Of a stretch of DNA of 64,000 bases, positions 46,960-63,909 are shown piece after piece. Below the pieces are notes generated by a model. That model was not told the DNA's origin. It did not search any database and worked only from the letters and a program-made list of their open reading frames with translations. The stretch is from the NCBI GenBank assembly GCA_021848385.1, contig JAJZUQ010000001.1:1-64000 (forward strand), read 5' to 3'. Position 1 is the first letter of the stretch, and each line of letters opens with the position of its first letter. This stretch comes from Deltaproteobacteria bacterium. Its GTDB lineage: Bacteria; Desulfobacterota; Desulfuromonadia; Geobacterales; Geobacteraceae. The position numbers were made by a program, and so were the translations under genes.

Positions 46960-48042
46960 TCAGTACGTCCGAAGCTCGTTATAGAGCGTATCCCGCTCCA
47001 CCGGTACCCGCCCCGCCATCCGGATGAGGGAGACGATGTCGTCGCGCCCCATGGTCTGGGGGGAAGAAGCACCGGCATCGTGACCGATCTTCTCTTCCAC
47101 CACCGTCCCGTCCAGATCGTTCACCCCGAAGCAGAGGGCCGTCTGGGCGATCTTTTCGCCGAGCATCACCCAGTACGCCTTGATATTGGCGAAATTGTCC
47201 AGGTAGAGCCGGGCAACGGCAAGGGTCTTGAGATCATCCACCCCGCCGCTCAAGGGGTTCTTCAGGTGGCCGAGGGGGTTGTTCTCCGTCTGGAAGGCAA
47301 GGGGGATGAACACCTGAAACCCGCCGGTCTCATCCTGCAGATCCCGCAACTGCCGCATATGATCGACCCGGTCCGCATAGGTCTCCACATGGCCGTAGAG
47401 CATGGTAGTGTTGGATTTGAGCCCGGCACCGTGGACCGCCCGCATCACCTCAAGCCACCGTGCGCCGCTGATCTTCTCCGGGCAGAGACGGTCGCGCACC
47501 TCCTGGCGGAGAATCTCCGCCCCTCCACCCGGCAGGGAACCGAGGCCTGCCTCCTTCAATATCTCAATGGTCCTCTCCAGGGAAAGACCGGCTAACTTGG
47601 CGAGGTAGTCGATCTCCACGGCGGTGAACGCCTTGATATGAAGGGAAGGAGCCGTTTCCCGTACCGCCAGGAGCATCTCCAGGTAGAAGTCGAAGGGAAG
47701 GTCGGGGTGCAGGCCGCCGACAATGTGGATCTCCGTCGCCCCTTGGGCAAGGGCCTGGCGGGTCCGGTTCCGGATTTCGTCGAGATTGTAGGTATAGGCC
47801 CCCGGCTCATCGGCGGTACGGGAGAAAGCGCAGAACTGGCACCGGTTCACGCAGATGTTGGTGTGGTTGATATGCCGGTTGACGTTGAAAAAAACCTTCC
47901 GGCCGTTGCGCCGCTCGTTGGCAAAGGCCGCCAGTTCGCCAACCGCCAGGAGGTCCGGCGACTCGAACAGGAAGAGGGCTTCGTCGTCATCCAGCCGTTT
48001 GCCGCTTCGGACCTTCCTGTCTATGGATGCAAATGAAATCAT
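46960..48042 (-). CDS. mqnE: Aminofutalosine synthase
   Basis: A 360-residue radical SAM enzyme, paralogous to MqnC. The cluster motif is C64-VNR-C68-QF-C71 (NICVNRCQFCAFSR), followed by [29 protein letters not shown] and the C-terminal DGTVVEEKIGHDAGAS. It joins SAM and 3-[(1-carboxyvinyl)oxy]benzoate to aminodeoxyfutalosine. It precedes mqnC in the transcription direction and follows ubiX. Confidence 0.9.
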   Translation of the reverse strand: MISFASIDRKVRSGKRLDDDEALFLFESPDLLAVGELAAFANERRNGRKVFFNVNRHINHTNICVNRCQFCAFSRTADEPGAYTYNLDEIRNRTRQALAQGATEIHIVGGLHPDLPFDFYLEMLLAVRETAPSLHIKAFTAVEIDYLAKLAGLSLERTIEILKEAGLGSLPGGGAEILRQEVRDRLCPEKISGARWLEVMRAVHGAGLKSNTTMLYGHVETYADRVDHMRQLRDLQDETGGFQVFIPLAFQTENNPLGHLKNPLSGGVDDLKTLAVARLYLDNFANIKAYWVMLGEKIAQTALCFGVNDLDGTVVEEKIGHDAGASSPQTMGRDDIVSLIRMAGRVPVERDTLYNELRTY

Positions 48043-48093
48043 ACGTTCTCTCGTTCTCCAAACCGCCAGCAGGGATTAACAGCGTTCCCGACA

Positions 48094-48717
48094 CTAGTCC
48101 CCAATCCCGGCTTCTTCTCCCCAGCGCCGGACCAGCTGATGCTCCATCCCCAGACTGTCCAGCACTCGCCCCACCAAAAAATCCACCATGTCGTCGAGGG
48201 AATGGGGGTGATGGTAGAACGCAGGCATGGCCGGGACCATCCGTACCCCCATCCGGGTGAGTTTCAGCATATTCTCCAGGTGGATCTCGTTGAGCGGCGT
48301 CTCCCGGGGGACCATCACCAGCCGGCGGTGCTCCTTGAGCATGACGTCCGCGCAACGCTCCAGCAAATTACCGGAAACCCCCGTCGCTATGCGGGCCAAG
48401 GTCCCCATGGAGCAGGGGCAGATCACGAGCGTATCGGGCGCGGCAGAACCGCTGGCAATGGGGGCGAAGAAGTCATCCTCGGCATAATAGGCAAGCTGTG
48501 CGGCATCCACCCCGAAGTGGCGGCAAAGGTCTTCCCTGACCGCCGCTGCCTCACCTTCCCACTCCAGCCCACACTCCTCCTTGAGAACTGCAAAGCCGGG
48601 ACGACTGATGAGCACCGTCAACCGCACCGATGCGCGCAGCAGCTCTTCGGCGATCCTCAGGCCGTAGACCACCCCGGAGGCGCCGGTGAGGGCAAGAACG
48701 ACATGTCGCGCTGTCAT
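48094..48717 (-). CDS. UbiX-like flavin prenyltransferase
   Basis: A 207-residue flavoprotein of the UbiX/Pad1 family. The GASGVVYGLRIAEEL motif binds FMN, and the conserved CPCSMGTLARIATGVSGNLLERCADVMLKE and MVPRETPLNEIHLENM blocks are present. It makes prenylated FMN for a UbiD-type decarboxylase. Between ubiA-like and mqnE genes it most likely serves the late decarboxylation step of the futalosine pathway. ATG at 48717 overlaps the preceding stop by four bases (ATGA). Confidence 0.88.
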   Translation of the reverse strand: MTARHVVLALTGASGVVYGLRIAEELLRASVRLTVLISRPGFAVLKEECGLEWEGEAAAVREDLCRHFGVDAAQLAYYAEDDFFAPIASGSAAPDTLVICPCSMGTLARIATGVSGNLLERCADVMLKEHRRLVMVPRETPLNEIHLENMLKLTRMGVRMVPAMPAFYHHPHSLDDMVDFLVGRVLDSLGMEHQLVRRWGEEAGIGD

Positions 48718-49592
48718 GCCCCCCCCTTCCGGGTAAGGACATCTATCAGGGTGGCAACGAAGATGATGACGCTGACATAGCCGTTCATGGTGAAGAACGC
48801 CAGGTCCAGCCGCGTCAGGTCCCCTTTCCGCAGCAGCCAGTGCTCGTAGCCGATCAGAAGAGCCGCCAGCACCAAGCCGGCAAGGAACCACCCCCCGAGG
48901 TGCATGGTCAGGTAAACCCCGGTCAGCAGCACGAGCATGATGAGGGAAAAGAGGCGGGCAGTCCATAAGGAGCCGGTGACTCCAAGCCGTACCGGGATGG
49001 AGTGGAGCCCCCGCTGCTGGTCGAACTCCAGATCCTGAAGCGCATAGAGGATATCGAAGCCGGCCACCCAGAAGAGCACCGCCAGTCCCAGCAGCACCAC
49101 CGGCAGATCCACGGTCCCCCGGATGGCTATCCACGCCCCGACAGGAGCGGCACCGAGACAGAGCCCCAGCACCAGGTGCGCCAGGGAAGTGAACCGCTTG
49201 CAGTAGGAATAGAGCACGAGGAAAGCGAGTGCCACTGGCGAGAGGTAGAGGCAGAGACGGTTCAGTTGGGCGGCAGCGAAGAACATGAGGAGTGAGGCGA
49301 GCAGCACATAGACGAAGACTGTCCCCTTGCCGAGGAGACCGGCAGGGATGGCACGGCTGCTGGTACGGGGATTGGCGGCGTCGATCTCCGCATCGATGAG
49401 CCGGTTCAACCCCATTGCGGCGGTACGCCCCCCCACCATGGCCATGAGGATCCAGAACGCCTGCTCTCCAGAGGGAAGCCCCCCCTTCGCCAGCAACGCA
49501 CCAGTGAAGGCAAAGGGGAGGGCGAATATGGTATGGGGAAATTTGATCATCTCCAGGAATACCCGGAGTTTATCCAGCCACGCTACTTTCAT
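48714..49592 (-). CDS. UbiA-family prenyltransferase (probable MqnP)
   Basis: A 292-residue membrane prenyltransferase with about nine spans. The two Asp-rich motifs are NRLIDAEIDAANPRTSSRAI and ALQDLEFDQQRGLHSIP. It should attach a polyprenyl chain to 1,4-dihydroxy-6-naphthoate in menaquinone synthesis; neighbours mqnE, mqnC and ubiX support this over ubiquinone. Two starts fit: 49592 (AGGTGG eight bases upstream) and 49610 directly after the previous stop. Confidence 0.87.
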   Translation of the reverse strand: MKVAWLDKLRVFLEMIKFPHTIFALPFAFTGALLAKGGLPSGEQAFWILMAMVGGRTAAMGLNRLIDAEIDAANPRTSSRAIPAGLLGKGTVFVYVLLASLLMFFAAAQLNRLCLYLSPVALAFLVLYSYCKRFTSLAHLVLGLCLGAAPVGAWIAIRGTVDLPVVLLGLAVLFWVAGFDILYALQDLEFDQQRGLHSIPVRLGVTGSLWTARLFSLIMLVLLTGVYLTMHLGGWFLAGLVLAALLIGYEHWLLRKGDLTRLDLAFFTMNGYVSVIIFVATLIDVLTRKGGA

Positions 49593-49611
49593 TGCACTTT
49601 CCACCTGCATG

Positions 49612-50124
49612 CTAACCCTGCCATTTCTCCGCAACGAGTAGTTCCTTCACCCGCTGCAACTCCTTCTTCAGATAATCGAGTTCGAACATGCCGGGGTATA
49701 CCTCGTAGGGGTACCGCTTCTTCAGCGTATCGAGCTTCCCGGCTTCGTCATAGACGTAGAACGTTCTGAGTTCAAGATCACAAGGTATCAACTGGACGGC
49801 AGATCCTTTCCCGTCGGCAACAACCCTGACCCTCAGTCGGTAGTAATAATCCCTTCCACCGGCCGGCATGCCGGAACTGGTGTCGTTGAAGAAGAACCGG
49901 TAGCTGGTAAGAATCACACCACCAGTCGTATCAACGGTATCCAGGAGAAACCCGTCCTGAAGCAGCCGTTTTTCAAACTCGGCGACGGCCCGGTCCACCG
50001 GTTGCCGGGACTTGAACTCCACGCTCTCCAGGGGAACCGGCATCAATCGCATATGATAGCAACCGCCGGCGCCGAGCAGGACTATCAGCATCACCCCGGC
50101 CAGAACCCCTCGCCACACCGTCAC
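49612..50124 (-). CDS. Lipoprotein of unknown function
   Basis: A 170-residue protein with a signal peptide and lipobox (LIVLLGAGGC, cysteine near residue 22). The rest is a mixed alpha/beta domain: LESVEFKSRQPVDRAVAEFE, GFLLDTVDTTGGVILTSYRF, YYYRLRVRVVADGKGSAVQL and a charged C-terminal helix. This is the head of the ubiA-mqn-hisC-rnd operon by spacing. GTG at 50124 with GGGAGGA is favoured over a GTG at 50142. No family recognised. Confidence 0.65.
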   Translation of the reverse strand: MTVWRGVLAGVMLIVLLGAGGCYHMRLMPVPLESVEFKSRQPVDRAVAEFEKRLLQDGFLLDTVDTTGGVILTSYRFFFNDTSSGMPAGGRDYYYRLRVRVVADGKGSAVQLIPCDLELRTFYVYDEAGKLDTLKKRYPYEVYPGMFELDYLKKELQRVKELLVAEKWQG

Positions 50125-50378
50125 AAACTGTATTCCTCCCACGTCAAGGGCATCTGCTCACCCATCAACGGTGACGGCAGCAATCTCCCGTAACGTATCG
50201 ACCTTAACCTGCATTCGCCGGAGTACCCCACCTCTCCCGCTTTTGCAGATATTCCTGCATGGTTGCGGTAAGTCATCACCCTCACCATGAAATGTCGTGA
50301 CATTTTACTGAATCTAATTTTGTAGCACTTCGGGGGGAATCTGACAACGGTTTTTTGGCAAAAGAGCCAGTTAACCTG

Positions 50379-50407
50379 TTGACAAACAACAACCATCAAG
50401 GTATATA
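50379..50407 (+). promoter_or_regulatory. Sigma-70 promoter of the tRNA-Pro gene
   Basis: TTGACA (50379-50384), a 17-base spacer and TATATA (50402-50407), 12 bases before the mature tRNA 5' end. Strong match for a stable-RNA promoter. Confidence 0.75.
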
Positions 50408-50418
50408 TATGCCCTTGT

Positions 50419-50495
50419 CGGGATGTAGCGCAGCCTGGTAGCGCACCTGCTTCGGGAGCAGGGGGCCGCTGGTTCAAATCCAGTCATCCCGACCA
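50419..50495 (+). tRNA. tRNA-Pro (anticodon CGG)
   Basis: A complete cloverleaf: acceptor CGGGATG/CATCCCG, D arm GCGC...GCGC, anticodon stem CCTGC/GCAGG with loop TTCGGGA (anticodon CGG), five-base variable region, T arm GCTGG-TTCAAAT-CCAGT, and an encoded CCA end. It reads CCG codons. It borders the AT-richer block on its right. Confidence 0.97.
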
Positions 50496-50601
50496 AAGAA
50501 ATCAAGGAGTTATGGCACCATGCTGTAGCTCCTTTTTCTTTTTTCTCTTTTGGGATCCTTTAATGTTGACCGCATTACTTAACGGAGGTGTCGGCCTGAT
50601 C

Positions 50602-51459
50602 ATGTCCTTATATCAAATAGTCATATTAGCCATAGTGCAAGGTGCCGCAGAACTGTTGCCGGTGTCGAGTTCAGCCCATGTAATTGTAGCTGAAAAGCTT
50701 ATGGGCCTTGATCCGACAAAGCCTGAGATGACTCTTTTACTGGTTATGCTCCATACAGGAACCATGTTTGCGGTTATCTACTATTTTTGGAAGTCATGGA
50801 GAGAGAGCTTCTTTTCATCGTCTAAGGTTTTATTGGACTCGGTGAAAATGGTTATCTTGGCTACAGGGATCACAGGGATTGTAGGATTATCATTGAAACA
50901 TCTGATTGAGAAGTTCTTTATGGCGAACGTGTCACATGCAGAAATTGAGATGCTATTCGGCAATCTGAATCTCATCTCTGTTTCACTCGCCGTTGTTGGT
51001 GTATTAATTATATTTGCAGGGATTAAGGGCCGCAACATTCCCGATGAAAAGAGCAGTGTGGGTATATTGGAATCCTCATATATTGGAGCAGTACAAGGGG
51101 TGTGTTTACCATTTCGTGGGTTTTCACGTTCCGGAGCCACTATCTCCACAGGCCTCCTCTTAAAAACATCAAGAAGGAAAGCCGAGGAGTTCAGCTTTGC
51201 TCTTGCGGTTGTGCTTACTCCCCCCGTCATTGTACGTGAAGTCATGAGATTGATGAAAGGGCAACATGCATCCACCATTCGGGATATGACGGGACTATTT
51301 ATGCCGAGCCTGCTGGGTATGGTGTTCAGCTTTATAGCAGGACTCATTGCTCTCAAATGGTTGTCCAGTTGGCTGGAGAAGGGTCGCTGGCACCTGTTTG
51401 GAGTCTACTGCATCTGTGTATCCATAGTAGTCTTTATATTACATCTTAACGGCCTGTAA
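50602..51459 (+). CDS. Divergent undecaprenyl-diphosphatase (UppP/BacA family)
   Basis: A 285-residue membrane protein with about eight spans. The UppP signatures are present with changes: QGAAELLPVSSSAHVIVAEKL (usual EFLPVSSSGH) and LPFRGFSRSGATIS (usual PGTSRSGATI). UppP recycles undecaprenyl pyrophosphate at the membrane and gives bacitracin resistance. The start at 50602 with GGAGGT is the best; longer in-frame starts at 50512 and 50563 exist. Codon use is more AT-rich than the flanking genes, suggesting transfer. Followed by an ABC exporter pair. Confidence 0.8.
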   Translation: MSLYQIVILAIVQGAAELLPVSSSAHVIVAEKLMGLDPTKPEMTLLLVMLHTGTMFAVIYYFWKSWRESFFSSSKVLLDSVKMVILATGITGIVGLSLKHLIEKFFMANVSHAEIEMLFGNLNLISVSLAVVGVLIIFAGIKGRNIPDEKSSVGILESSYIGAVQGVCLPFRGFSRSGATISTGLLLKTSRRKAEEFSFALAVVLTPPVIVREVMRLMKGQHASTIRDMTGLFMPSLLGMVFSFIAGLIALKWLSSWLEKGRWHLFGVYCICVSIVVFILHLNGL

Positions 51460-51578
51460 AGACTGGAGCCGTATTCACCCTCGGGATGATGTTTGTTATC
51501 GACAAGCAGGTAGCAAAAAAACTGCATGTCGCTCAGGTTTGACAAGAAACAATAGGAAAATTTACAAGAGACCCCTAT

Positions 51579-52283
51579 ATGATTGAGTTGAAAAATGTTA
51601 CCAAACGTTACGATTCGCTCACGGTTGTTGACGATGTATCCTTCACGGTAAAGGCAGGTGAGTGCTTTGCACTGCTTGGACCCAATGGTGCAGGAAAGAC
51701 GACTATCGTTAAAATGCTGCTCAACTTTACACGCCCGACATCTGGCAGTTTATCTATAAACGGTATTTCAAGTTCACAGGCAGAATGCCGACAAGCTGTC
51801 GGTTATCTTGCCGAAAACCACCATATCCCACCATCACTTTCAGGGTGGCACTACCTCCTGCGCTGTGCTGAGCTATTGGATATGAACCAGTCTGAGGCTA
51901 TCGATCACTGCAGGCACATTGTCGAACTGATCGGCATGCAAGGCAGGGAACATACAAAAGCCGGCACATATTCGAAGGGTATGGTTCAACGGTTCGGATT
52001 AGGCGCTGCACTCATGGGAGAACCAAAACTGTTAATTCTGGATGAGCCCACCTCTGGCTTGGATCCCATCGGTATCAGGGAAATACGCCAGCTCCTGGAG
52101 TCGCTTAAAGATCAAGGCATGACCATCTTTCTGAATTCACATCTGCTATCGGAAGTTGAGAAAATCTGCGATACCGCAGCTATCATCAACCGTGGCAAAC
52201 TCTTGGTAAAAGAGAACATTTCTGCCATTGTCAGAGATGGCGAGACGCTGGAAGACCTGTTTGTAAGACTCGTGAGAGGTTGA
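51579..52283 (+). CDS. ABC transporter ATP-binding protein
   Basis: A 234-residue ABC ATPase of the exporter type (CcmA/NatA-like). Walker A is GPNGAGKT (34-41), the signature is TYSKGMVQR, Walker B is LLILDEPTSGLDP, and the switch histidine is in NSHLLSE. It is one base from the permease gene. The pair would export an unidentified substrate. More AT-rich than the core genome. Confidence 0.88.
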   Translation: MIELKNVTKRYDSLTVVDDVSFTVKAGECFALLGPNGAGKTTIVKMLLNFTRPTSGSLSINGISSSQAECRQAVGYLAENHHIPPSLSGWHYLLRCAELLDMNQSEAIDHCRHIVELIGMQGREHTKAGTYSKGMVQRFGLGAALMGEPKLLILDEPTSGLDPIGIREIRQLLESLKDQGMTIFLNSHLLSEVEKICDTAAIINRGKLLVKENISAIVRDGETLEDLFVRLVRG

Positions 52284-52284
52284 C

Positions 52285-53133
52285 ATGGAAACTTCGAAAG
52301 CACTTCCCCCCATGACAAGGATTGCTAAATATACGCTTATTGACGAAGTGCAGCAGAGAAGTTTTGTCGTCATGTTCGTTATCTGCGCCATCTGCGTATT
52401 TCTAGTTCGTGGTTGTTATCACGGCAATTATATGGTGAACGGGCAAGCTCTTGATACCGGAACTATCGTCAGAACTTTATCGAAAGCGATCTTCCACGTC
52501 ATCAGCAGTGGCGTGATGGTCATAGCGGCCTTACTCTCGATGCGGATATTCAGGCGCGACCGAGACGAAGGGACTCAATCGTGTGTTTTGTCTAAGCCGA
52601 TAGAGCGGTGGCAGTATGTTATGGGAAAGCTTCTTGGATTATGGGTCTTATCGGCACTATTCATGTTCATCTTGCATAGCATTGTGTTCTTGATCACCTC
52701 CATCAATTTGAAGGTTTTCATACCGGGATACCTCGCTGCCTCACTGCTATGTACTATCAACCTGCTCTTTGTGGTTATTGCTGTGCTTCTTTTGTCACTC
52801 CTGATGCCGGATATTGTCGCTTTTCTTTGTGTCCTGGGGATCGGCATCGTCGGCTTTGTAGCTGACGGCATAGCTGCTGCCAGCCACAGTCAGATAGTAC
52901 AGGCGATAGTGCAGCAACCTGCCGGCCAGCCACAGTCTGACCTGACTTGGTGGAAAGTAGTCTATGTTTTATGGCCGAAGCTTTTAGGCGTTCAACAATT
53001 GGCAGCTTCGTTGATTGAGAGTGATGCATCCCATGGATTCGGGCCTATCTATCCGCTCATCAATATTCTTGCCTACTGCCTTATTCTGGGACTGTTGCTA
53101 TTCAAGCGATTTAGGGCTGAAGATATTGTCTAG
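52285..53133 (+). CDS. ABC-2 type permease
   Basis: A 282-residue membrane protein with six or so spans, of the ABC-2/NosY type. The N-terminus has the MRIFRRDRDEGTQSCVLSKPIERWQ cytoplasmic loop typical of these permeases and LSKP motif. It partners the ATPase encoded directly upstream. A NosY-like role cannot be shown, and the substrate is unknown. Confidence 0.8.
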   Translation: METSKALPPMTRIAKYTLIDEVQQRSFVVMFVICAICVFLVRGCYHGNYMVNGQALDTGTIVRTLSKAIFHVISSGVMVIAALLSMRIFRRDRDEGTQSCVLSKPIERWQYVMGKLLGLWVLSALFMFILHSIVFLITSINLKVFIPGYLAASLLCTINLLFVVIAVLLLSLLMPDIVAFLCVLGIGIVGFVADGIAAASHSQIVQAIVQQPAGQPQSDLTWWKVVYVLWPKLLGVQQLAASLIESDASHGFGPIYPLINILAYCLILGLLLFKRFRAEDIV

Positions 53134-53202
53134 TTTTTGGGATGATTGATCATCAGGAAAACCGATTGATAGTTGTCCCTGGCCCGATTAAACCGGTAAA
53201 TA

Positions 53203-53442
53203 ATGAAACAAACACCCCAAAGCGATACACCACTCGAACACATTGACCCCGAGACCCACAGCGTCTATCTGCCAGCAGTGCAGTTCTTACCTCCAAAGGC
53301 AGCATCGCCGACAAACCCGAAAAAGGACATCATCCGTCTCCAGCCGGAGAATCCGAACTACAATCCGATCATTATCCGCGAGGAGGAAGCAGAGGTCACC
53401 ATCATCGGCAAGGTGGTCGGCGTCTACCGGAGCCTGGAGTAG
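53203..53442 (+). pseudogene. LexA/S24-type repressor C-terminal remnant
   Basis: A 79-residue frame. Residues 43-79 (IIRLQPENPNYNPIIIREEE... VTIIGKVVGVYRSLE) match the end of LexA/UmuD-type S24 peptidases (the R-L-x-P-x-N-P...G-K-V-V-G block). The first 40 residues do not match any LexA domain, and the HTH, cleavage site and catalytic Ser/Lys are absent. It lies directly before DUF6504 and a dinB fragment, the usual order of a lexA-imuB/dinB-like mutagenesis cassette. Read as a decayed lexA. Confidence 0.7.
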
Positions 53443-53445
53443 CCC

Positions 53446-53661
53446 ATGCGGATCAGGGAGCCCATACGGGTAGCCGCGGTCTTCGGGCCGGGGCACACCC
53501 TTAAGCCGGTCTGGTTCGACTGGAGAAACCGCAAGCACGGCGTCCTGGAGACCACCTACTCCTGGACCGACATGAAGGGAAACGCCAAGCGTTTGCACTT
53601 CGCGGTACAGGACGAGGGGGGGCTGTACCAGCTGACCTACGATACTGCCGAGCAGACCTGA
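53446..53661 (+). CDS. DUF6504-like small protein
   Basis: A 71-residue protein starting four bases after the lexA remnant. The sequence REPIRVAAVFGPGHTLKPVWFDWRNRKHGV... LHFAVQDEGGLYQLTYD fits the small beta-rich proteins (DUF6504) that accompany Y-family polymerases or their inactive partners in mutagenesis operons. It appears intact. Its role is unknown; being between lexA and dinB remnants it is probably a survivor of that cassette. Confidence 0.6.
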   Translation: MRIREPIRVAAVFGPGHTLKPVWFDWRNRKHGVLETTYSWTDMKGNAKRLHFAVQDEGGLYQLTYDTAEQT

Positions 53662-53687
53662 AGTCTGAAAGACCTTGAAGGAGAAGC

Positions 53688-54278
53688 ATGACATTGTCAA
53701 TCATCCCATCATCAGCTGATATGCTATCGATACTGAAGCTCTTCATTATCCCGGCCGGCGGCGGCATTCCTGCCGGGGTTATGCTCGCCAAGACCAAAGG
53801 AGTGGCCTGGCCCGTCACCACACTGCTCTATCTGGGGTCGGATATCATCCTGGCCATTGCTTTTGAACCAATCCTGCGTATCATCGCCTTTTTCTGCGGG
53901 AAAGTTTCATTCCTGACCCGGTTCAGCGCTGCATTGAAAGCCGCAACAGCGCGGAGCGTGTCGCATTACGGCGGCACAGGTGCTGGCCCGATTGCCCTCA
54001 TCATGATCGCGTTCGGGGTTGACCCCATGACAGGGCGGGCCACAGCCCTCGCTGCCGGTCACGGCATCGTGACCGGCTGGGCCATCGCAGTCACAGGCGA
54101 CATGCTCTATTTCGCGGTCATCGCGATCAGCACGTTAAGCCTGAACTCGTACATACGAGACCCGAACACGACCATGCTGATCATCCTCGTGGCAATGTTC
54201 TTTATTCCTGTAATCATACGCCGTATCCGATCAAGGAGCCCACTCTCTCAAGAGGCCGAGGCATTGAACAGCGAGTAA
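53688..54278 (+). CDS. Membrane protein of unknown function
   Basis: A 196-residue protein with about four hydrophobic segments ([61 protein letters not shown] to [16 protein letters not shown], and [19 protein letters not shown]). It is reminiscent of small-multidrug-exporter-like proteins, but I cannot assign it. AAGGAG precedes the ATG. Its last codons run over the point where dinB would start, so it is wedged inside the decayed cassette. Confidence 0.6.
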
Positions 54279-54735
54279 TCCTTCACATCGACATGAATGC
54301 CTTCTTCGCCTCCGTGGAGCAGCAGGCGAACCCGGAGCTGCGAGGCAAACCGATCGCCGTTATCGGCCGGGGCCGCACTGTTGTCACTACCGCTTCCTAC
54401 GAAGCCGATCCTTCGGCGTCAAGACCGGCATGAACACCTGGCAGGCGAAACAGTCCTGTCCGTATATCATCTTCGTTATCAGCGATAACCGAAAGTACAC
54501 CCACACCTCCACCGAGATCATGGCCATGATGCGGGAATATACACCGCTGGTCGAGGCCTTCTCCATCGACGAACCCTGGATAGACGTCACCCACGCCTTG
54601 AGCCTCTTCGGCTCACCGGAAACCATCGCCTACCAGCTGAAAGCCAGAATTAAACAGCGCTTCGGTATTAACCTCTGTGCCCGGTCATCGCAGTCCTATC
54701 TCCTCACCTGTCGTCAACATCGCCAGAATGTTTGA
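54267..54735 (+). pseudogene. dinB: dinB (DNA polymerase IV) fragment, frameshifted and truncated
   Basis: Reading [20 protein letters not shown] from 54276 gives the Y-family N-terminus with the first catalytic aspartate. At about 54407-54411 one base is missing between GAAGCC and TTCGGCGTC, and the frame moves. The rest, [10 protein letters not shown], continues to VEAFSIDEPWIDVTHALSLF (catalytic DE) and RFGIN, then loses homology near 54675 and stops at 54735. The start codon is also gone: the upstream frame is that of the neighbouring membrane gene. About 140 of 390-400 residues remain, so it is non-functional. Confidence 0.85.
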
Positions 54736-54779
54736 AGAATCAATCACCCGACAAATAATGAATTTTTTCACATTTATAT

Positions 54780-54807
54780 TTGACAAGCCAAAAGTACGCG
54801 ATAAAAA
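54780..54807 (+). promoter_or_regulatory. Promoter of the riboswitch-controlled gene
   Basis: TTGACA (54780-54785), a 16-base spacer and TAAAAA (54802-54807). Predicted start near 54814, inside the palindrome at 54804-54825 and about 22 bases before the aptamer. Confidence 0.6.
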
Positions 54808-54825
54808 TTAAACGTGTTTAATTTT
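54804..54825 (+). promoter_or_regulatory. Perfect operator-like palindrome at the transcription start
   Basis: AAAATTAAAC (54804-54813) and GTTTAATTTT (54816-54825) are perfect complements around two bases. The dyad overlaps the -10 and predicted start, a classic repressor position. The regulator is unknown. Confidence 0.6.
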
Positions 54826-54835
54826 ACAGATAGAC

Positions 54836-54913
54836 GATACTACTAAACCATCCGCGAGGATGGGGCGGAAAGCCTGCAGTGTCTCACTGAGATAGCCGGG
54901 TTGCCGAAATATC
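54836..54913 (+). promoter_or_regulatory. GEMM-I (cyclic dinucleotide, class I) riboswitch aptamer
   Basis: P1 closes GATA with TATC at the ends. The P2 hairpin is CCATCC-GCGA-GGATGG (54848-54863) with a GNRA tetraloop, preceded by AAACC and followed by GGCGGAAAGCC. P3 is CAGTG-TCT-CACTG, then AGCCGGGTTGCCG, the tetraloop-receptor and ligand-site strand. This is the c-di-GMP-I/GEMM-I layout, in Geobacter used by both c-di-GMP and 3',3'-cGAMP aptamers. The base before AAACC is T where Vc2 has C21 and the next is C where Vc2 has G20, so ligand preference cannot be read with certainty. Confidence 0.8.
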
Positions 54914-54941
54914 ATGCGATATATTAGGCTCCGGATTTTTT
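54896..54941 (+). terminator. Riboswitch expression platform: terminator overlapping the aptamer
   Basis: CCGG (54896-54899) and GCC (54903-54905), part of the aptamer's 3' strand, pair with GGC (54927-54929) and CCGG (54931-54934). An inner ATATC-ATGC-GATAT hairpin closes the loop and a six-T run follows. The terminator and the ligand-bound aptamer cannot form together, so ligand should switch transcription on. Confidence 0.65.
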
Positions 54942-55085
54942 CGCGCCAAAATTCTACTAAGTTGCTGTGTCGATATCTGGCAGAGAGCCTTCAAAGATGG
55001 GCATATCCCAAACGAAAGGAGGTGAAAGGGGAATACTGGAACTATTGTGTTTGCCGTAAAAAATAAAAAGAAAAGGAGCAGAAGA

Positions 55086-55823
55086 ATGAAGAGGTTATCT
55101 ATCTTGTTTGCAGCAGTCTTTTCGTTTACCTCCGCAATACCTGTATTTGCAGGGGTTGGCAACATCTCAGACAATGGCCCCCATTACAACCTGAACATCA
55201 TCGGCGTAGCAAAAGGTAAAACAGTCGATATGACCGACTCGCAGCGCCACACCATCTTTGTCCCTCTCAACACCGCGGGGTATGTTGACGGAAACGTCAA
55301 AATCTCCTATGTACGTGCCCCCGCAGGAGAAGGCTTCGCAGTATTGGATGGTAATGCAACGGATAAAGATGGTGCCATTATCCAGGTTCCTTACGAGTAT
55401 TGTACCGACCTGACTACTGGCTGCCAGGACCTGCTGAGCTATAATGTTTATGCAGTGGCGTTAGGGAAACAGGGCGGCTCCGTTTTGGTAAATGCCTCCT
55501 GCACATACGACACCAACGTGCTCGACAGCAACGGGATTTCGGGGACCTGCACGGATACCCTCCTCATGAACAACTTCACCCTCACCCGTGACAAGGGACA
55601 ACCTAAGCCCCAGAATATCTCTGACATATTTCGCGCCTCCGGTTGTCTGGATCTTGACAGTTCCGGAACGTGTAATACTGGTGATATCACCTTCAGCAAC
55701 ATCTGGATATTCAACATTCAGCAACTCACCGACTATTTCTGGACATACGACAACGATGGTCTGAAACACATGCAGATCAGGTTCTATCCTACCGTTTCCG
55801 GAACTATCAGCATCGTGAAGTAA
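55086..55823 (+). CDS. Riboswitch-controlled exported protein of unknown function
   Basis: A 245-residue protein with a signal peptide (MKRLSILFAAVFSFTSAIPV, cut after VFA near residue 22). The mature part is beta-rich with five or six cysteines (ENYC-type pairs in PYEYCTDLTTGCQDLL, NASCTYD, SGTCTDTLL, SGCLDLDSSGTCNTGD), suggesting disulfides in the periplasm or outside. CLDLDSSGTCNTGD resembles a small calcium-binding loop. AAGGAG precedes the ATG. Control by a cyclic-dinucleotide riboswitch fits a surface or extracellular-electron-transfer role, as for Geobacter cGAMP-regulated cytochromes and pili, but it has no heme motif. No family recognised. Confidence 0.75.
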   Translation: MKRLSILFAAVFSFTSAIPVFAGVGNISDNGPHYNLNIIGVAKGKTVDMTDSQRHTIFVPLNTAGYVDGNVKISYVRAPAGEGFAVLDGNATDKDGAIIQVPYEYCTDLTTGCQDLLSYNVYAVALGKQGGSVLVNASCTYDTNVLDSNGISGTCTDTLLMNNFTLTRDKGQPKPQNISDIFRASGCLDLDSSGTCNTGDITFSNIWIFNIQQLTDYFWTYDNDGLKHMQIRFYPTVSGTISIVK

Positions 55824-56128
55824 CACAGATTCAATCGGTACGATTGCTTAAAGTGTAATGCAACAACAGGGTTAAATAAGCCGACACCTCCTCTCTCGCC
55901 TGCTACCCCGGCAACCTGACAGTTGTTTGCATCTCCACCCAAGATTCACGCCACACAAAAGGTCGGTTTCACGATAATCGACCTTTTGTGTGGCCTTACT
56001 TTCATTGGTAACATAGCAACGTGTCACGGTTATCTCCCCTACTCATCAGGACGTTCGCTTTCCGTTCCACCTCGCTGCACCGCGTAGCCGATGTTGCTTT
56101 TTCCCGGCAAAATATATACAACTGCATC
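55824..56128. other. Intergenic region with a terminator only
   Basis: About 300 bases. Apart from the hairpin terminator at 55951-55993 there is no open frame, promoter or repeat I can support. An in-frame GTG for the next gene at 56021 exists but lacks a ribosome site. Confidence 0.4.
55951..55997 (+). terminator. Intergenic terminator
   Basis: CCACACAAAAGGTCG (55951-55965) pairs perfectly with CGACCTTTTGTGTGG (55979-55993), a 15-bp stem with 13-base loop. No long T-run follows, so strength is moderate. It ends transcription from the exported-protein gene. Confidence 0.65.
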
Positions 56129-57889
56129 ATGGGCTCATTGCTGCGCGTAAAACCTCTGCTGATTTTCCCGCTGCTCTTCATGGCTCTCTGCCTGCCCAGC
56201 ACGCTGCTGCATGCTGAGAGCGCGGACGAACCCGGCCCCGATTCGCGCACCATCGTAGTCGGTGGCGACCGGGATTATCCCCCGTACGAATTCATCGATA
56301 AGGATGGCCATCCCGCCGGCTACAACGTTGACCTCACCCGGGCCATTGCCGATGTGATGGGGATGAAGGTGGCGTTCCGCTTCGGCAGCTGGTCGGAGAT
56401 GCGCCATGGTTTGAGCAACGGCAGCATCAACATCCTCCAGGGGATATCCTGGTCGGAGGAGCGGGCGAAAAAGCTCGACTTCAGCCCCCCCCACACTATC
56501 GTTCACCACGCGGTCTTCGCCCGGAAGGGAACCCCGGCCATCTCCTCTCTGGAGGAACTGCGGGGCAAGAAGGTCATCGTTTTCCGCGACGGCATCATGT
56601 ACGACAAGCTGATGAGCCTCGGTTTCGGCAAGGATCTGATTCTTACCGGCACACCGGCCGACGCCCTCCGGCTGCTCGCCTCGGGCAAGTACGACTACTG
56701 CGTGGTCGCCAGCCTCCCCGGCATGTACCTGATCCGCGAACTGCACTTGACTAACGTGGTGCAGGTGGCCAAGAACGTTTCCGCCCGGAAGTACTGTTAC
56801 GCGGTGAACAAGGGGGACGCCGAGCTCCTGACCCGCTTCAGCGAGGGGCTGGCCATCGTCATGCAGTCCGGCAAGTACCAGGCCATCTACGACAAGTGGC
56901 TCGGGGTGAATGAGCCCCCCACCTTTCCCCGGGAACGGATACTGAAGTACGGTGCCATGGTACTGCTTCCGCTGGTCCTGGGGCTCGCGGCCAGCATGGT
57001 CTGGTCGCGCACCCTGCAGCGACGGGTTGCCGTCCGCACCGGTGAGCTGGCTCGGGAGGTGGCAGAACGCAAGCTCGCCCTGGAGGAGCTGCGCCGCCAC
57101 CAGGACAGACTGGTGCAGGCCGACAAGATGGCATCCCTTGGCATCCTGGTCTCCGGAGTGGCCCACGAGATAAACAATCCCAACGGCCTGCTGCTGCTCA
57201 ATCTGCCCATATTGCGGGACGTGTACGCCGACGCCCTGCAGGAACTGGAAGAGCGCTACCAGCGGGAGGGAGATTTCCTTCTCGGCGGGGTCAGCTATGC
57301 CAGGATGCGTGACGAGATACCCCAGATGCTGGAGGAAATGGTTCACGCCGCCCAGCGTATCAAACGTATCGTGGAAGACCTGAAGGATTTTGCCCGCCCC
57401 GATGCGGTGGCAGCCATGGAGCAGTTCGACGTCAACCAGGTAGTACAGGCGGCGGTGCGGCTGGTGGAGCCGTCCCTGCGCAAGGCAACTACCCGGTTCT
57501 CCGCGACCTACGGCGAGCGGCTTCCCCGCGTCTGCGGCAATTCCCAGCGTATCGAGCAGGTAGTCATCAATCTGCTTATCAATGCCTGCCAGTCGCTGCC
57601 GGCAAACGACCGGGCCATCGTACTGTCAACCGCCTACGAACAAGCCAGCGACAGCGTTACCCTGACCATCAGGGACGAGGGAATCGGCATACCGCCGGAG
57701 CATTTCTCCCACCTGACTGACCCGTTTTTCACCACCAAGAGGGAAAGCGGCGGTACCGGCCTGGGGCTCTCCATCTCCGCCGGCATCGCCCAGGAACATG
57801 GCGGTGAGATCACTTTCAGTTCGCCGCCGGAAGGGGGAACCACGGTCAAGCTGGTTCTCCCCGCCATGAAGGAGGTTATACCGCCATGA
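56129..57889 (+). CDS. Sensor kinase with periplasmic solute-binding domain (DctB-like)
   Basis: A protein of about 586 residues. After a signal peptide/span (LLRVKPLLIFPLLFMALCLP) comes a SBP_bac_3-type solute-binding domain (RDYPPYEFIDKDGHPAGYNVDLTRA... GKKVIVFRDG), a membrane span (YGAMVLLPLVLGLAASMVW), a coiled coil, then HisKA with GVAHEINNPNG and a HATPase domain (INLLINACQSLP, RDEGIGIP, GGTGLGLSIS). The start at 56129 is best because it places the signal peptide at the N-terminus. It is translationally coupled to the activator gene (ATGA) and, with dctA, forms a probable dicarboxylate-sensing system. Confidence 0.87.
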   Translation: MGSLLRVKPLLIFPLLFMALCLPSTLLHAESADEPGPDSRTIVVGGDRDYPPYEFIDKDGHPAGYNVDLTRAIADVMGMKVAFRFGSWSEMRHGLSNGSINILQGISWSEERAKKLDFSPPHTIVHHAVFARKGTPAISSLEELRGKKVIVFRDGIMYDKLMSLGFGKDLILTGTPADALRLLASGKYDYCVVASLPGMYLIRELHLTNVVQVAKNVSARKYCYAVNKGDAELLTRFSEGLAIVMQSGKYQAIYDKWLGVNEPPTFPRERILKYGAMVLLPLVLGLAASMVWSRTLQRRVAVRTGELAREVAERKLALEELRRHQDRLVQADKMASLGILVSGVAHEINNPNGLLLLNLPILRDVYADALQELEERYQREGDFLLGGVSYARMRDEIPQMLEEMVHAAQRIKRIVEDLKDFARPDAVAAMEQFDVNQVVQAAVRLVEPSLRKATTRFSATYGERLPRVCGNSQRIEQVVINLLINACQSLPANDRAIVLSTAYEQASDSVTLTIRDEGIGIPPEHFSHLTDPFFTTKRESGGTGLGLSISAGIAQEHGGEITFSSPPEGGTTVKLVLPAMKEVIPP

Positions 57890-59295
57890 CCCATTCTCCC
57901 TCCCCTGATTTCAAGATTCTCCTGGTGGATGACGAGCCGGCCTGGCTCCGCTCGGTCAGTCTCATTCTGGCCAGGGCGGGGATTACCAATATCGCCACCT
58001 GTAGCGACGGCCGCGGCGTCATGGATATCCTGGCGGACGGAGAGGTGGGACTGGTGCTCCTCGACCTGACCATGCCCCACCTGGCCGGTGAAGAACTCCT
58101 GGCCGCCATTGCCGAGAAGCACCCGGAGGTGACCACCATCGTCGTCAGCGGCATGAACCAGCTGGAGACGGCGGTCCGCTGCATGAAGCTCGGGGCCTTC
58201 GATTATTTTGTCAAGACGGTGGAAGAAGACCGGCTGGTGCAGGGGGTGATGCGCGCCATTCGCATGCACCAGCTGGAGAGGGAGAACCGGGTCATGTCCG
58301 ACAGGCTCCTCTCCCGTAGGCTACGCCACCCGGCCGCCTTCAGCGATATTGTCACCGCCGACCCGGCCATGCATGACATTTTTGCCTATATAGAAGCGGT
58401 GGCTCAAAGCCCCCAGCCGCTCCTTATAACTGGCGACAGCGGCGTGGGAAAGGAACTGGTAGCCCGGGCGGTGCACCGTCTGAGCGGAAGGGCAGGTCAG
58501 CTGGTTTCCGTCAACGTGGCAGGCCTGGATGACAACGTCTTTGCCGATACCCTTTTCGGTCATCTGCGCGGCTCCTTCACCGGCGCCGATCAGGCGCGGC
58601 GGGGGATGGTGGAGGAGGCGGCCGGAGGGACCCTACTCCTCGACGAGATCGGGGACCTCTCCATCGCCTCCCAGATAAAGCTACTCCGCCTGCTACAGGA
58701 GGGAGAGTACTTCCCCCTGGGGAGCGACCGTCCCAAGCGACTCTCCGCCAGAATCATCGTCGCAACCCACCAGAACCTCTCCGCCAAGGGAGCCGCCGGT
58801 CAGTTTCGCCGCGACCTCTACTACCGTCTCCGCACCCATCGCATCAAAATTCCACCGCTCAGGGAGCGGCTCGGCGATATACCTCTCCTGGTGGAACATT
58901 TTCTCCAGAAAGCTGCGCAGGAGTTGGGGAAGAAAAAACCGACCCCGCCCCGGGAGCTGTTCCAACTTCTGGCCAGTTACAGCTTTCCCGGCAACGTACG
59001 CGAACTCAGGTCCATGGTCTACGACGCGGTCAGCATCCACCGGGACCGGGTCCTCTCCCTGCAGAGCTTTATCGCCGCCATCGGTTCGGCCGCTACAAGC
59101 GGCGAAGGGACACAGCGATTGCCGGGGGAAAATATCTTCCGGGGGGTGGAGAAGTTGCCAACCATCTCCGAGACGGTGGAGCAGCTGATTGCCGAGGCAA
59201 TGGACCGAGCCGACGGCAACCAGACCATCGCGGCCCGGATGCTCGGCATCTCCCAGCCTGCCCTGAGTAAAAGGCTTTCCCGCAGGGAAACCTGA
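57886..59295 (+). CDS. Sigma-54-dependent response regulator (NtrC/DctD type)
   Basis: A 469-residue activator. The receiver has D15-D16, phospho-acceptor D60 (LVLLDLTMP) and K110. The AAA+ domain has Walker A GDSGVGKE (183-190), the sigma-54 contact loop G229-SFTGA (usually GAFTGA), and Walker B GGTLLLDEIG. A Fis-type HTH ends the protein (QTIAARMLGISQPALSKRL). It should act at the sigma-54 promoter before dctA. Start overlaps the kinase stop (ATGA). Confidence 0.92.
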   Translation: MTHSPSPDFKILLVDDEPAWLRSVSLILARAGITNIATCSDGRGVMDILADGEVGLVLLDLTMPHLAGEELLAAIAEKHPEVTTIVVSGMNQLETAVRCMKLGAFDYFVKTVEEDRLVQGVMRAIRMHQLERENRVMSDRLLSRRLRHPAAFSDIVTADPAMHDIFAYIEAVAQSPQPLLITGDSGVGKELVARAVHRLSGRAGQLVSVNVAGLDDNVFADTLFGHLRGSFTGADQARRGMVEEAAGGTLLLDEIGDLSIASQIKLLRLLQEGEYFPLGSDRPKRLSARIIVATHQNLSAKGAAGQFRRDLYYRLRTHRIKIPPLRERLGDIPLLVEHFLQKAAQELGKKKPTPPRELFQLLASYSFPGNVRELRSMVYDAVSIHRDRVLSLQSFIAAIGSAATSGEGTQRLPGENIFRGVEKLPTISETVEQLIAEAMDRADGNQTIAARMLGISQPALSKRLSRRET

Positions 59296-59330
59296 AAATC
59301 CATTCCATTGACTCAAGGGGGATAACTTTC

Positions 59331-59431
59331 GTTATAATTAATAACCTTTGTTATACCCCTTATCCATCACCGCACCAACCCCGTTCTGTCTCTGCTGCGG
59401 ACCACTTCCCATGACAGAGGTTATACCCCTT
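59331..59431 (+). promoter_or_regulatory. Upstream activator-binding sites for dctA
   Basis: The region between the activator gene and the sigma-54 promoter has GTTAT-AATTA-ATAAC (59331-59345), an exact dyad, and two copies of GTTATACCCCTT (59350-59361 and 59420-59431) 70 bases apart, about seven helical turns. These are good candidates for enhancer sites of the NtrC-type protein encoded upstream. Confidence 0.55.
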
Positions 59432-59501
59432 CCTTTTCTCCAGGCATCAATAAAACAAAGTTATTTCAATTATTGCAGATAGTTATCAACCGTATACGGT
59501 T

Positions 59502-59517
59502 TGGTATCCCTCTTGCT
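59502..59517 (+). promoter_or_regulatory. Sigma-54 promoter of dctA
   Basis: TGGTATCCCTCTTGCT contains the -24 GG and -12 GC of a sigma-54 promoter in correct spacing (TGGCAC-N5-TTGC consensus). It lies about 70 bases before the dctA ATG and downstream of the enhancer sites. Confidence 0.7.
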
Positions 59518-59588
59518 AATATAGCTTTACACACTGACGTCTGTAAGAGGCGCAGGTTGCACCATTTCACGCAGGAAAGGAAAGTTTC

Positions 59589-60914
59589 ATGCAAAAGAAA
59601 CGTTTCTACCAATATCTGTATGCCCAGGTGCTGACTGCCATCGCCTGCGGTATCCTCCTCGGGTACTACTACCCGGACGCAGGTGTTGCCATGAAGCCGC
59701 TGGGTGACGGTTTTATCAAGCTTATCAAGATGATCATCACCCCGGTCATCTTCTGCACTGTTGTCACCGGGATCGCCGGCATGGAGGACATGAAGAAGGT
59801 CGGCAGGGTGGGGGGAAAAGCGCTTATCTACTTTGAAGTGATCTCCTCAATCGCCCTGGCCATCGGCCTTTTCATCATCAACGTAGTCCAGCCCGGCGTC
59901 GGCTTCAATGCCGACGTGACCAAACTGGACACCAAGGCGCTTACCGCCTTCACCACCCAGGCCAAGGCCCATTCGATGGTGGATTTCCTCCTGAACATCA
60001 TCCCGTCTTCGGTGGTTGACGCCTTTGCCAAGGGAGATATTCTTCAGGTGCTCCTTTTCGCGCTCCTCTTCGGTTTTGCCCTCTCCGCCCTGAAAGAAAA
60101 GGGGAAACCGGTGCACCGGTTGATCGAGAACGTTTCCCACGCCTTTTTCGGTATCGTCAATATCATCATGAAGCTTGCCCCCATCGGTGCCTTCGGCGCC
60201 ATGGCCTTTACCGTCGGCAAGTTCGGCGTCGGCTCCCTCTCCAAGCTTGGGATGCTCATGGGGAGCTTCTACCTCACCTGCATCCTCTTCATTTTTGTGG
60301 TCCTCGGCACCATCGCCCGCCTCTGCGGCTTCAGCATCTTCAAGTTTCTCCGCTACATCAGCGATGAACTCGTCATCGTCCTTGGCACATCTTCCTCCGA
60401 GTCTGCCCTGCCGCGAATGATGACCAAGCTGGAAAATCTCGGCTGCAAGAAATCGGTGGTAGGCCTGGTTATCCCAACCGGCTACTCCTTTAACCTGGAC
60501 GGCACCTCCATCTACCTCACCATGGCCGCCATCTTCGTCGCCCAGGCAACCAACACCCCTCTGACCCTGACCCAGACCATCACCATTCTGGGAGTCCTCC
60601 TTCTCACTTCCAAGGGAGCTGCCGGCGTTACGGGGAGCGGCTTTGTCACTCTTGCCGCCACCTTCGCCGCCATCCCCACCATCCCGGTGGCCGGCCTGGC
60701 CCTGATCCTCGGCATAGACCGCTTCATGTCCGAAGCCCGGGCCATCACCAACCTGATCGGCAACGGAGTGGCAACGGTGGTTGTGTCCAAGTGGGAGAAC
60801 GACCTTGATGTCGAACGGATGAAGCGGGTACTGAACGGTGACGGCGAGCCGTCCGCCATCACCGAAGCCGCCATGTCGCTGGTTGAGCCTGAACTGGAGA
60901 GTGTGCCGGAATAG
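59589..60914 (+). CDS. dctA: C4-dicarboxylate/proton symporter DctA
   Basis: A 441-residue DAACS-family transporter with eight spans and two re-entrant loops. Family motifs are [33 protein letters not shown] (hairpin 1, serine-rich), [14 protein letters not shown], and [15 protein letters not shown]. It imports fumarate, malate or succinate with protons. AAGGAAAG precedes the ATG. It follows a matching sensor-regulator pair and sigma-54 promoter, and has its own terminator. Confidence 0.95.
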
Positions 60915-60959
60915 CCATCGTTGTGCTGAAGTGTCATGGTTATGGTTGATAAAAAGGGA

Positions 60960-60989
60960 AGAGGCGCCGGAGTTGGCGCCTCTTTTTTT
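60960..60989 (+). terminator. dctA terminator
   Basis: GAGGCGCC (60961-60968) pairs with GGCGCCTC (60975-60982), loop GGAGTT, followed by seven T residues. It lies about 50 bases after the stop. Confidence 0.9.
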
Positions 60990-61032
60990 GTTTGCGGGGA
61001 GAGGTGAATTCTACTAATGTCCAGTTAGGAAA

Positions 61033-61755
61033 CTACTTGAGCTTCAGGACAACCGTGTAGATGTCGCCGCTCTCCTTTTCCCGCACCTGCATCCGCAGTT
61101 CCTTGGCGGACTGGGCCTCGCCGGGGAAGAAGATGAAACCGTTTGCCAGGTAGGCATTGGGAATGACCTTCCCCTCAAGCCCTTTCTCCCGGATATCATC
61201 GGCGATGCGGTAATTCTGCTCCCGGTCCGATCCACCCTGGACCCCGCCGATGACCGCACCCCCCGCAGCACCGAGGACCGCCCCCTTTCCGAGAGCCTCC
61301 CCCACGTTATGACCGGAAACGATGCCGATGGCCGCACCCAGGATGGTACCGGCAACCGCCCCGAACATCGCGCTTTTACCCGCACCCGCCGCCACGGCCC
61401 CCGAAGCGGTGTACTGCTCCACGCGTTCGACTGCGGCCCGGTTCTCCATTACATTCCAGTAACGGTTGCTGTCATCCACGAGGAATGTCTGTCCAGAGAC
61501 GATCTCCATGGTCTGACCACTCTTGTTGTCGATCACCAACTGGACCGGGAGAAGCCCCGCCCCCCGGATGTCGAAACCGAAGGCTTCCGCAGCCACGGAT
61601 TGGTCTGCGTAGGCCTCCGCAGCCATGGGAGCCCCCGCGACCACCTGGAAGTTGGGATAGGCTTCTGGCGGCTTGAACGAGACGTACTGGGTCTTGTAGG
61701 TGGCGCAGCTGGAAACCAGCGTCAGACAGAGCATCATGGATACGAGACGTTTCAT
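61033..61755 (-). CDS. Glycine-zipper lipoprotein of unknown function
   Basis: A 240-residue protein with a lipobox (MMLCLTLVSSC, cysteine at 17). The central part has a glycine zipper (GAVAGTILGAAIGIVSG and GAVLGAAGGAVIGGVQGG), which may insert into membranes or self-associate. A beta domain precedes it (VQLVIDNKSGQTMEIVSGQT). No family name is certain. It is divergent from the PAS kinase. Confidence 0.7.
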   Translation of the reverse strand: MKRLVSMMLCLTLVSSCATYKTQYVSFKPPEAYPNFQVVAGAPMAAEAYADQSVAAEAFGFDIRGAGLLPVQLVIDNKSGQTMEIVSGQTFLVDDSNRYWNVMENRAAVERVEQYTASGAVAAGAGKSAMFGAVAGTILGAAIGIVSGHNVGEALGKGAVLGAAGGAVIGGVQGGSDREQNYRIADDIREKGLEGKVIPNAYLANGFIFFPGEAQSAKELRMQVREKESGDIYTVVLKLK

Positions 61756-61983
61756 GGGTCAACCCCCTTGAAGTAGCTTTGTCATAAAGAATACCACACC
61801 TTCAGCGGCGCCGGCAAGGAGAAGCACCCTGCCTTCCACGGGGAGTCAGTATACTGGCAGCCATAGCCGGCGTAATTGAGATCTCCGCTATAAACAGTCG
61901 CTTTTCCCCTTTTTTTGGCTATAATAATATCTCTTCATGTTCTTGACAGAAGGATGGCAGGCTGCTGACCGGGATCTGAACAC
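61756..61983. other. Divergent intergenic region
   Basis: 228 bases between the lipoprotein gene (minus) and the PAS kinase (plus). A TATAAT-like TATAATAATATC lies near 61920 on the plus strand; no convincing -35 or regulatory repeat is visible. Confidence 0.3.
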
Positions 61984-63909
61984 ATGGGACGGATTAACGG
62001 AGAAAAACATTCAAAGCTCAAAGCGGTCATTAAAACCGACCGGGAGAATGCGGAAGTCGCTCTCCGTATCCGGGATGCCGCTATCGATGCGTCCATCAAC
62101 GCAGTCGCCTTTTCCGATCCCAACGGTCTGCTCACCTATGTTAACCCTTCGTTCCTCAAAATGTGGGGCTACGGAGACGACAGCGAGGTTCTCGGCCGCT
62201 CCGCCGTCTCATTCTGGCACATAACCGAGGATATACGTCACGCCAAGGACGCCCTGCGTCACGATGGCTGCTGGAGTGGAGAGCTGGTTGCCGTTCGCAA
62301 GGACGGCTCGTTGTTCGACGTGATGCTGTCGGCAGCTGTCATCGCCGGCGACGACGGCACACCCCTCTGTTTGATGGCGTCATTCGTAGAGATAACCGAG
62401 CGCCGCAAGGCTGAGGCGGCTCTTGCCGACAAGGAACGGCGATACCGCTCTCTGGTCGAGGCGATGAACGAGGGAATTGCCATCCACGAGCTCGTGCTTG
62501 GCGAGGCCGGCAACCCTGTCGATTACCGGATACTTGACATAAACCCGGCATATGAGAAATACACCGGGCTCACGAGAGACCAGTCGCAGGGGAAACTGGC
62601 AACTGACCTTTACGGCACGGCCGAAGCCCCCTATCTCGACATCTATGCCCCCATTGCCCAGAATGGTGGACATTGCGAGTTCGAGACTTACTTCCCCCCC
62701 ATGGACAAGCACTTCCGGATCTCAGTCTTTTCCCCCAACCACGGTCAGTTCGCCACCATCTTCATCGACATAACCCATATCAAAGAGCATGAGGAGGCGC
62801 TCCGGCAGAGCGAGGAAATGTTCCGGCAGCTTCTGGAGCACTCCCCCATAGCCATTGTCATCAGCAACACCGAAGGCGCCATAGAACTGTTGAACGACCG
62901 GTTCGTCGATATTTTCGGTTATACCCTCGCCGAAATACCGGACCTGGCAACGTGGTTTCAACGCGCCTGCCCCGATCCATCTTACCGCAAGGTGGTGATG
63001 GATGCGTGGAACGCTATGGTAGAGCGGCCTCATCCGAAAGAAAAGCCTGTCGACCATACCGAATGCCGGGTAACCTGCAAGGATGGCAGGGAATGCATCA
63101 CCGAATTCATTACTGCGGTAATAGACGGTAAGAACCTGGTGATCATGAACGACGTCACCGAACGGAAAATGGCCCTGCAACAGATCGAATATCTTAACAC
63201 CGCCCTGGCGGCCAGGGCGGCCGAGCTGGAAAACTCAAACCGGGAGCTGGATTCCTTCAGTCATACGATTTCCCACGACCTGCGTACCCCCCTGACCAAT
63301 ATCAGCGGCTACGCCCAGCTCATGCGGGAGATATATGGCGACCGCCTTGACGATCAGGCAATTGATTTCCTCAGGGAGATAGCCTGCGCCACCGAACGGA
63401 TGGACAACATGATCGAATCGCTCCTCAAATTCTCCGCCCTGTCCCGTCAGCCTCTCCAGAAGGTACGGGTCGACCTCAATTCCATCGCGGCCAACGTCAT
63501 TACCGAACTCCAGCTGACTACTCCCCAGCGTCGGGTGCAGTTCATTGCCTCAGATCGAATGGTTGTTCAGGGGGATCCTACACTGCTCCGGATCGTCATG
63601 GCCAACCTGCTCGGCAATGCCTGGAAATACACAGCCAAGAAGGAATCGACTGTCATCCATTTCGGCATCACCGAGCGCAACGGACAGAAGGTTTACTATG
63701 TGAAAGACAACGGGGTCGGGTTCGACAAGAAGCTTGCTGACCAGATTTTCACCCCGTTTCACCGGCTCCATAAGGCCGAGGATTTCAAGGGAACCGGTAT
63801 CGGGCTCGCCACCGCCCAGAGGATTATCCATCGCCACGGCGGGGATATATGGGCAGAGGGGGAAGTGGACAAGGGTGCTACGTTCTATTTTACCCTGGCT
63901 AATGATTGA
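61984..63909 (+). CDS. Soluble PAS-domain sensor histidine kinase
   Basis: A 641-residue cytoplasmic kinase without membrane spans. PAS 1 (about 30-145, ending ITERRKAEAAL), PAS 2 (about 150-270), PAS 3 (about 278-395, EEMFRQLLEHSPIAIVISN), a coiled coil, then HisKA with H431 (SFSHTISHDLRTPLTNISGY) and HATPase (MANLLGNAWKYT, DNGVGFD, GTGIGLATAQ). The PAS domains would sense redox, light or small ligands. No response regulator is adjacent; it may be an orphan kinase. ATG at 61984 has no strong ribosome site. Confidence 0.87.
   Translation: MGRINGEKHSKLKAVIKTDRENAEVALRIRDAAIDASINAVAFSDPNGLLTYVNPSFLKMWGYGDDSEVLGRSAVSFWHITEDIRHAKDALRHDGCWSGELVAVRKDGSLFDVMLSAAVIAGDDGTPLCLMASFVEITERRKAEAALADKERRYRSLVEAMNEGIAIHELVLGEAGNPVDYRILDINPAYEKYTGLTRDQSQGKLATDLYGTAEAPYLDIYAPIAQNGGHCEFETYFPPMDKHFRISVFSPNHGQFATIFIDITHIKEHEEALRQSEEMFRQLLEHSPIAIVISNTEGAIELLNDRFVDIFGYTLAEIPDLATWFQRACPDPSYRKVVMDAWNAMVERPHPKEKPVDHTECRVTCKDGRECITEFITAVIDGKNLVIMNDVTERKMALQQIEYLNTALAARAAELENSNRELDSFSHTISHDLRTPLTNISGYAQLMREIYGDRLDDQAIDFLREIACATERMDNMIESLLKFSALSRQPLQKVRVDLNSIAANVITELQLTTPQRRVQFIASDRMVVQGDPTLLRIVMANLLGNAWKYTAKKESTVIHFGITERNGQKVYYVKDNGVGFDKKLADQIFTPFHRLHKAEDFKGTGIGLATAQRIIHRHGGDIWAEGEVDKGATFYFTLAND

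Follow-up and report, generated by a model that had tools for sequence, protein, structure and literature searches.

A GEMM-Ib riboswitch, most likely sensing 3',3'-cGAMP, before a secreted-protein gene on a lineage-specific DNA segment in Geobacteraceae

The locus and its lineage-specific setting

We analysed a 64,000-nucleotide stretch of a Geobacteraceae genome (the whole of this stretch is called the window here), in which a promoter, a perfect dyad and a structured RNA leader precede a single gene (Table 1). The gene encodes a 245-amino-acid protein with an apparent signal peptide, recognised by eye, and the strong hairpin behind it is consistent with a one-gene unit. The protein yielded no match in Pfam, NCBIfam or PHROG, no homologue among 57 relatives or in plasmids or viral contigs, and no useful match among solved structures (best E-value 0.53), while a structure prediction from two sequences reached a mean pLDDT of 34. 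The sole homologue found, 57-59% identical, is encoded in a Desulfuromonadales metagenome bin (L041), and the region upstream of it contains no GEMM-I match. Since this homologue adjoins a tRNA-Sec and a gene that by eye resembles a phage-type integrase gene (L041:5001-7206), the controlled gene's family may travel on integrating elements.

Table 1. Coordinates of features in the window
Feature	Position	Strand	Basis
Segment carrying leader and gene, missing in closest relative G001	50542-56076		Flanks 116 bp apart in G001
Sigma-70-type promoter, TTGACA-17-AAAAAT	54780-54808	+	10/12 consensus matches; sibling-like spacing to aptamer
Perfect 10+10 dyad with a spacer of 2, covering the -10 box and predicted start; candidate operator	54804-54825		Sequence
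GEMM-Ib aptamer including P1, P2 and P3	54829-54913	+	RF01051, 37.6 bits; sibling alignment
Intrinsic terminator overlapping aptamer 3' strand, six-T tail	54896-54941	+	-14.6 kcal/mol; sibling hairpins
Shine-Dalgarno-like AGGAG, 7 nt before ATG	55074-55078	+	Direct reading
Controlled gene, 245-aa protein, apparent signal peptide	55086-55823	+	No known family
Strong terminator-like hairpin 3' of gene, 19 pairs	55950-55994	+	Terminator scan

Leader and gene lie together on a 5.5-kb segment directly behind a tRNA-Pro(CGG) (50419-50495). In the closest relative, G001, the sequences corresponding to window positions 46960-50541 and 56077-63900 are neighbours on one contig, 116 bp apart. No string of 10 or more bases is shared between the tRNA end and positions 50600-57000, and no att-like repeat is evident. 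Also on the segment, just upstream of the riboswitch, are a remnant of the C-terminal part of lexA (53332-53439) and a broken, frameshifted dinB (54263-54669); intact relatives of lexA and dinB are found close together elsewhere in G001. The simplest reading is that the segment was gained in the host lineage, the alternative being that it was lost as a whole in G001.

The promoter proposed in an earlier, sequence-only reading of this DNA was recovered with 10 of 12 consensus matches. Its -35 box lies 54 nt upstream of the aptamer's ACGA. Among the other eight leaders of the same genome, six carry TTGAC 53-74 nt before ACGA, one carries TTGAAA at 52 nt and the eighth is the downstream member of a tandem pair.

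The aptamer and its ligand pocket

Using the covariance model of Rfam family RF01051 (c-di-GMP-I/GEMM-I), we obtained a match at 54832-54908 on the forward strand that spans the full model length and scores 37.6 bits. Given a gathering score of 35 bits this is a narrow pass: the search supports the element, but not with the score well above threshold that the sequence-only reading had anticipated. The leader is the lowest scorer of the nine RF01051 matches in the genome (37.6-51.9 bits). With the same model, the family was found in 57 of the 58 lineage genomes searched, our own included, and in none of the 14 control genomes. P1 is formed by GATA (54829-54832) with TATC (54910-54913), and P2 (54848-54863) reads CCATCC-GCGA-GGATGG, that is, a GNRA-type GCGA loop on a base-paired stem. 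Like this P2, the motifs GCGGAAAGCC and GCCGGGTTGCC are found in the leader, in agreement with the earlier reading. In an alignment of 67 leaders (7 own and 60 from relatives), each P2 pair is retained in 66 or more, and both sides of the stem show exchanges. The GEMM-I element is real, and its family is abundant in the host genome.

Aligned to the published numbering, A54842 corresponds to position 20 of Vc2, and A occupies this position in 8 of the 9 GEMM-I copies that the covariance model found in the genome. In Geobacter, A20 marks the GEMM-Ib subclass, which is selective for 3',3'-cGAMP, and the exchange A20G switches it to c-di-GMP (PMC6456294). We therefore assigned the leader to the GEMM-Ib subclass; judged by these published homologues, its ligand is most likely 3',3'-cGAMP.

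C54904 aligns with C75 of Gs1761. At Gs1761 position 12 (Vc2 18, also by alignment), the leader carries C54840 in place of the conserved, ligand-contacting A that most relatives have; this A is present in the crystallised cGAMP aptamer and hydrogen-bonds the ligand in simulation (PMC6274999). A pattern search that allowed A or C only at this position gave A in 146 and C in 4 of the 150 matches listed, all four C-bearing leaders belonging to the host genus; as the same search required A at Vc2 20, it is no measure of the frequency of A20. Of these four, G000:C19 and G003:C34 are apparent orthologues by their shared terminator. Because C is present in three leaders besides ours, among them these apparent orthologues in different genomes, it is tolerated, and since it occurs in 4 of the 150 matches listed, A at this position is not a strict requirement of GEMM-Ib. 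The unusual pocket base could alter ligand preference, which would favour c-di-GMP as the ligand, as would the name of the Rfam family and the report that one Geobacter GEMM-I (OmcST) responds to both ligands (PMC6456294). However, position 54842 carries A and not G, the very change known to select cGAMP (PMC6456294), and we regard c-di-GMP as a highly improbable ligand of this aptamer.

A cGAMP-sensing organism would be expected to encode a Hypr GGDEF cyclase such as GacA. Three genomes of the same genus carry gacA with the Ser signature (GHLVGS), and a fourth relative has a homologue. The gene was not found in the host assembly, which has a contig gap at the corresponding place: the match on C43 extends as far as its final base (5767) and resumes on C20 at base 141. 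Because the place of gacA falls between these contigs, its absence is uninformative, and we set it aside as evidence against cGAMP sensing. At the selecting position, canonical GGDEF enzymes carry Asp and GacA carries Ser. A further GGDEF protein, L056 (G000:C97:51612-52082), has Thr (GHFAGT) there and is kept in three same-genus genomes. It was considered as a cGAMP cyclase; none of the literature examined credits it with that activity.

The terminator, the direction of the switch and competing readings

The terminator hairpin (54896-54934) is built from CCGGG/TCCGG, GCC/GGC and ATATC/GATAT, and six T follow at 54936-54941. Positions 54896-54905 are common to the aptamer's 3' strand and the terminator, and the CCGGGTTGCC strand can alternatively pair with the stretch ending at 54934. 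As terminator and aptamer compete for this 3' strand, the two folds are mutually exclusive, just as the sequence-only reading had described; sibling leaders show the same layout. A simple terminator scan gave no match for this hairpin, probably because of its internal loops. Since nearly all of the 67 GEMM-Ib leaders have an equivalent overlapping hairpin, the built-in terminator is the standard expression platform of the family and not peculiar to 54896-54941.

In G. metallireducens, the pilM riboswitch is an ON switch whose aptamer and terminator exclude each other (PMC9262584), and ligand-raised read-through has been reported for sibling riboswitches (PMC9262584, PMC6456294). Siblings in the host genome are found in front of pilM and, in tandem, in front of an L,D-transpeptidase gene, in agreement with the published regulon. 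From these published homologues we infer an ON direction also for the present leader; the earlier proposal that ligand turns transcription on gains support from the covariance-model match, the sibling leaders and the published riboswitches of the same type. Transcription would start near 54815. Binding of cGAMP to the nascent aptamer would let P1 and the junction hold the CCGGGUUGCC strand, so that the polymerase would continue into the gene; without ligand, the CCGGGUUGCC strand would pair with 54918-54934 and transcription would end at the T run. With its anatomy visible in the leader, and with ligand and direction suggested by homologues, the element is very probably a GEMM-Ib riboswitch of the transcriptional ON type that controls a single secreted protein.

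Points against this ON switch are the lowest model score of the nine, the pocket C, the weak terminator and the gacA gene not found in the assembly, although the place of gacA falls in the gap described above. By an automatic cut-out rule, which was too tight for at least one further leader (L142), the terminator is the fourth lowest of 67 in strength, and the aptamer's leave-one-out score is the 12th lowest of the same 67. Both ranks, like the exchange of A for C at Gs1761 position 12 and the broken lexA and dinB remnants on the same segment, would fit a decaying descendant of a cGAMP switch that has become unresponsive and leaves the gene constitutive or leaky. Against such decay, the core and P2 are undamaged, the selecting A and C75 are both present, the T run of the terminator is kept, and the presence of the position-12 C in three other leaders, including the two apparent orthologues, shows that it is tolerated. 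We therefore think a defunct switch unlikely. Given the exchange at a ligand-contacting base and the low terminator strength, a switch that is weaker or leakier than its siblings is plausible.

The sequence-only reading had also placed a DNA-binding protein at the dyad as a second layer of control, so that a protein would repress at the start site and cGAMP would control termination. The dyad itself, AAAATTAAAC-GT-GTTTAATTTT, was confirmed: it is perfect, is centred on the predicted start and covers the -10 box, and its length is reached in 20 of 5,000 local dinucleotide shuffles. However, it was picked out after inspection, and the window holds ten perfect dyads with arms of at least 10, so that only the location of this one is notable. 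It is single-copy in the genome, was not found in 12 relatives with up to one mismatch allowed, and has no comparable counterpart in the other eight GEMM-I leaders of the genome. LexA was considered as its binder, as lexA and dinB remnants lie nearby, and was rejected since the dyad before G001 lexA, TAGTGTACAAATATACACTA, is dissimilar. No candidate regulator emerged. The dyad thus lacks the recurrence and conservation of a repressor operator, although a private one-gene operator would look alike. The protein layer was not borne out by these comparisons; the dyad is a possible operator, and control in two layers seems rather doubtful. A bolder scenario, in which C at Gs1761 position 12 has tuned the cGAMP pocket to another affinity or selectivity, the riboswitch was recruited to the lineage-specific segment to control an undescribed secreted protein, and a dedicated repressor acts at its promoter as well, is very unlikely.

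Relation to known riboswitches

The riboswitch is ordinary for its family and belongs to an already-known type of element. It resembles the Geobacter GEMM-Ib riboswitches GSU1761 and Gmet_0970 in its fold, A at Vc2 20, overlapping terminator and location upstream of an exported-protein gene, but differs from them in C at Gs1761 position 12, a weaker terminator and an unrelated target on a lineage-specific segment. The mutually exclusive aptamer and terminator are shared with the pilM riboswitch of G. metallireducens, reported as an ON switch (PMC9262584), whereas the direction of our leader is drawn by analogy and its target gene is a different one. Compared with the Vc2 type of RF01051, it shares the fold and passes the gathering score, but has A for G at position 20 and C for A at position 18. 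What is new here is the lineage-specific location, the pocket C, the weak terminator and the specification of the ligand as, most likely, cGAMP.

With this locus, the likely cGAMP regulon of Geobacter-type bacteria gains an orphan secreted protein, and a cGAMP-type riboswitch is seen on a lineage-specific DNA segment. Moreover, the natural exchange of A for C at a ligand contact, found in four of the leaders listed and in one genus, provides a convenient probe of the strictness of the cGAMP pocket.

Within the host genome, the ninth GEMM-I copy (L007, G000:C97:46235-46315) is divergent and carries C, neither A nor G, at the ligand-selecting position. It precedes a gene for a protein in which a kelch-like repeat was recognised by eye.
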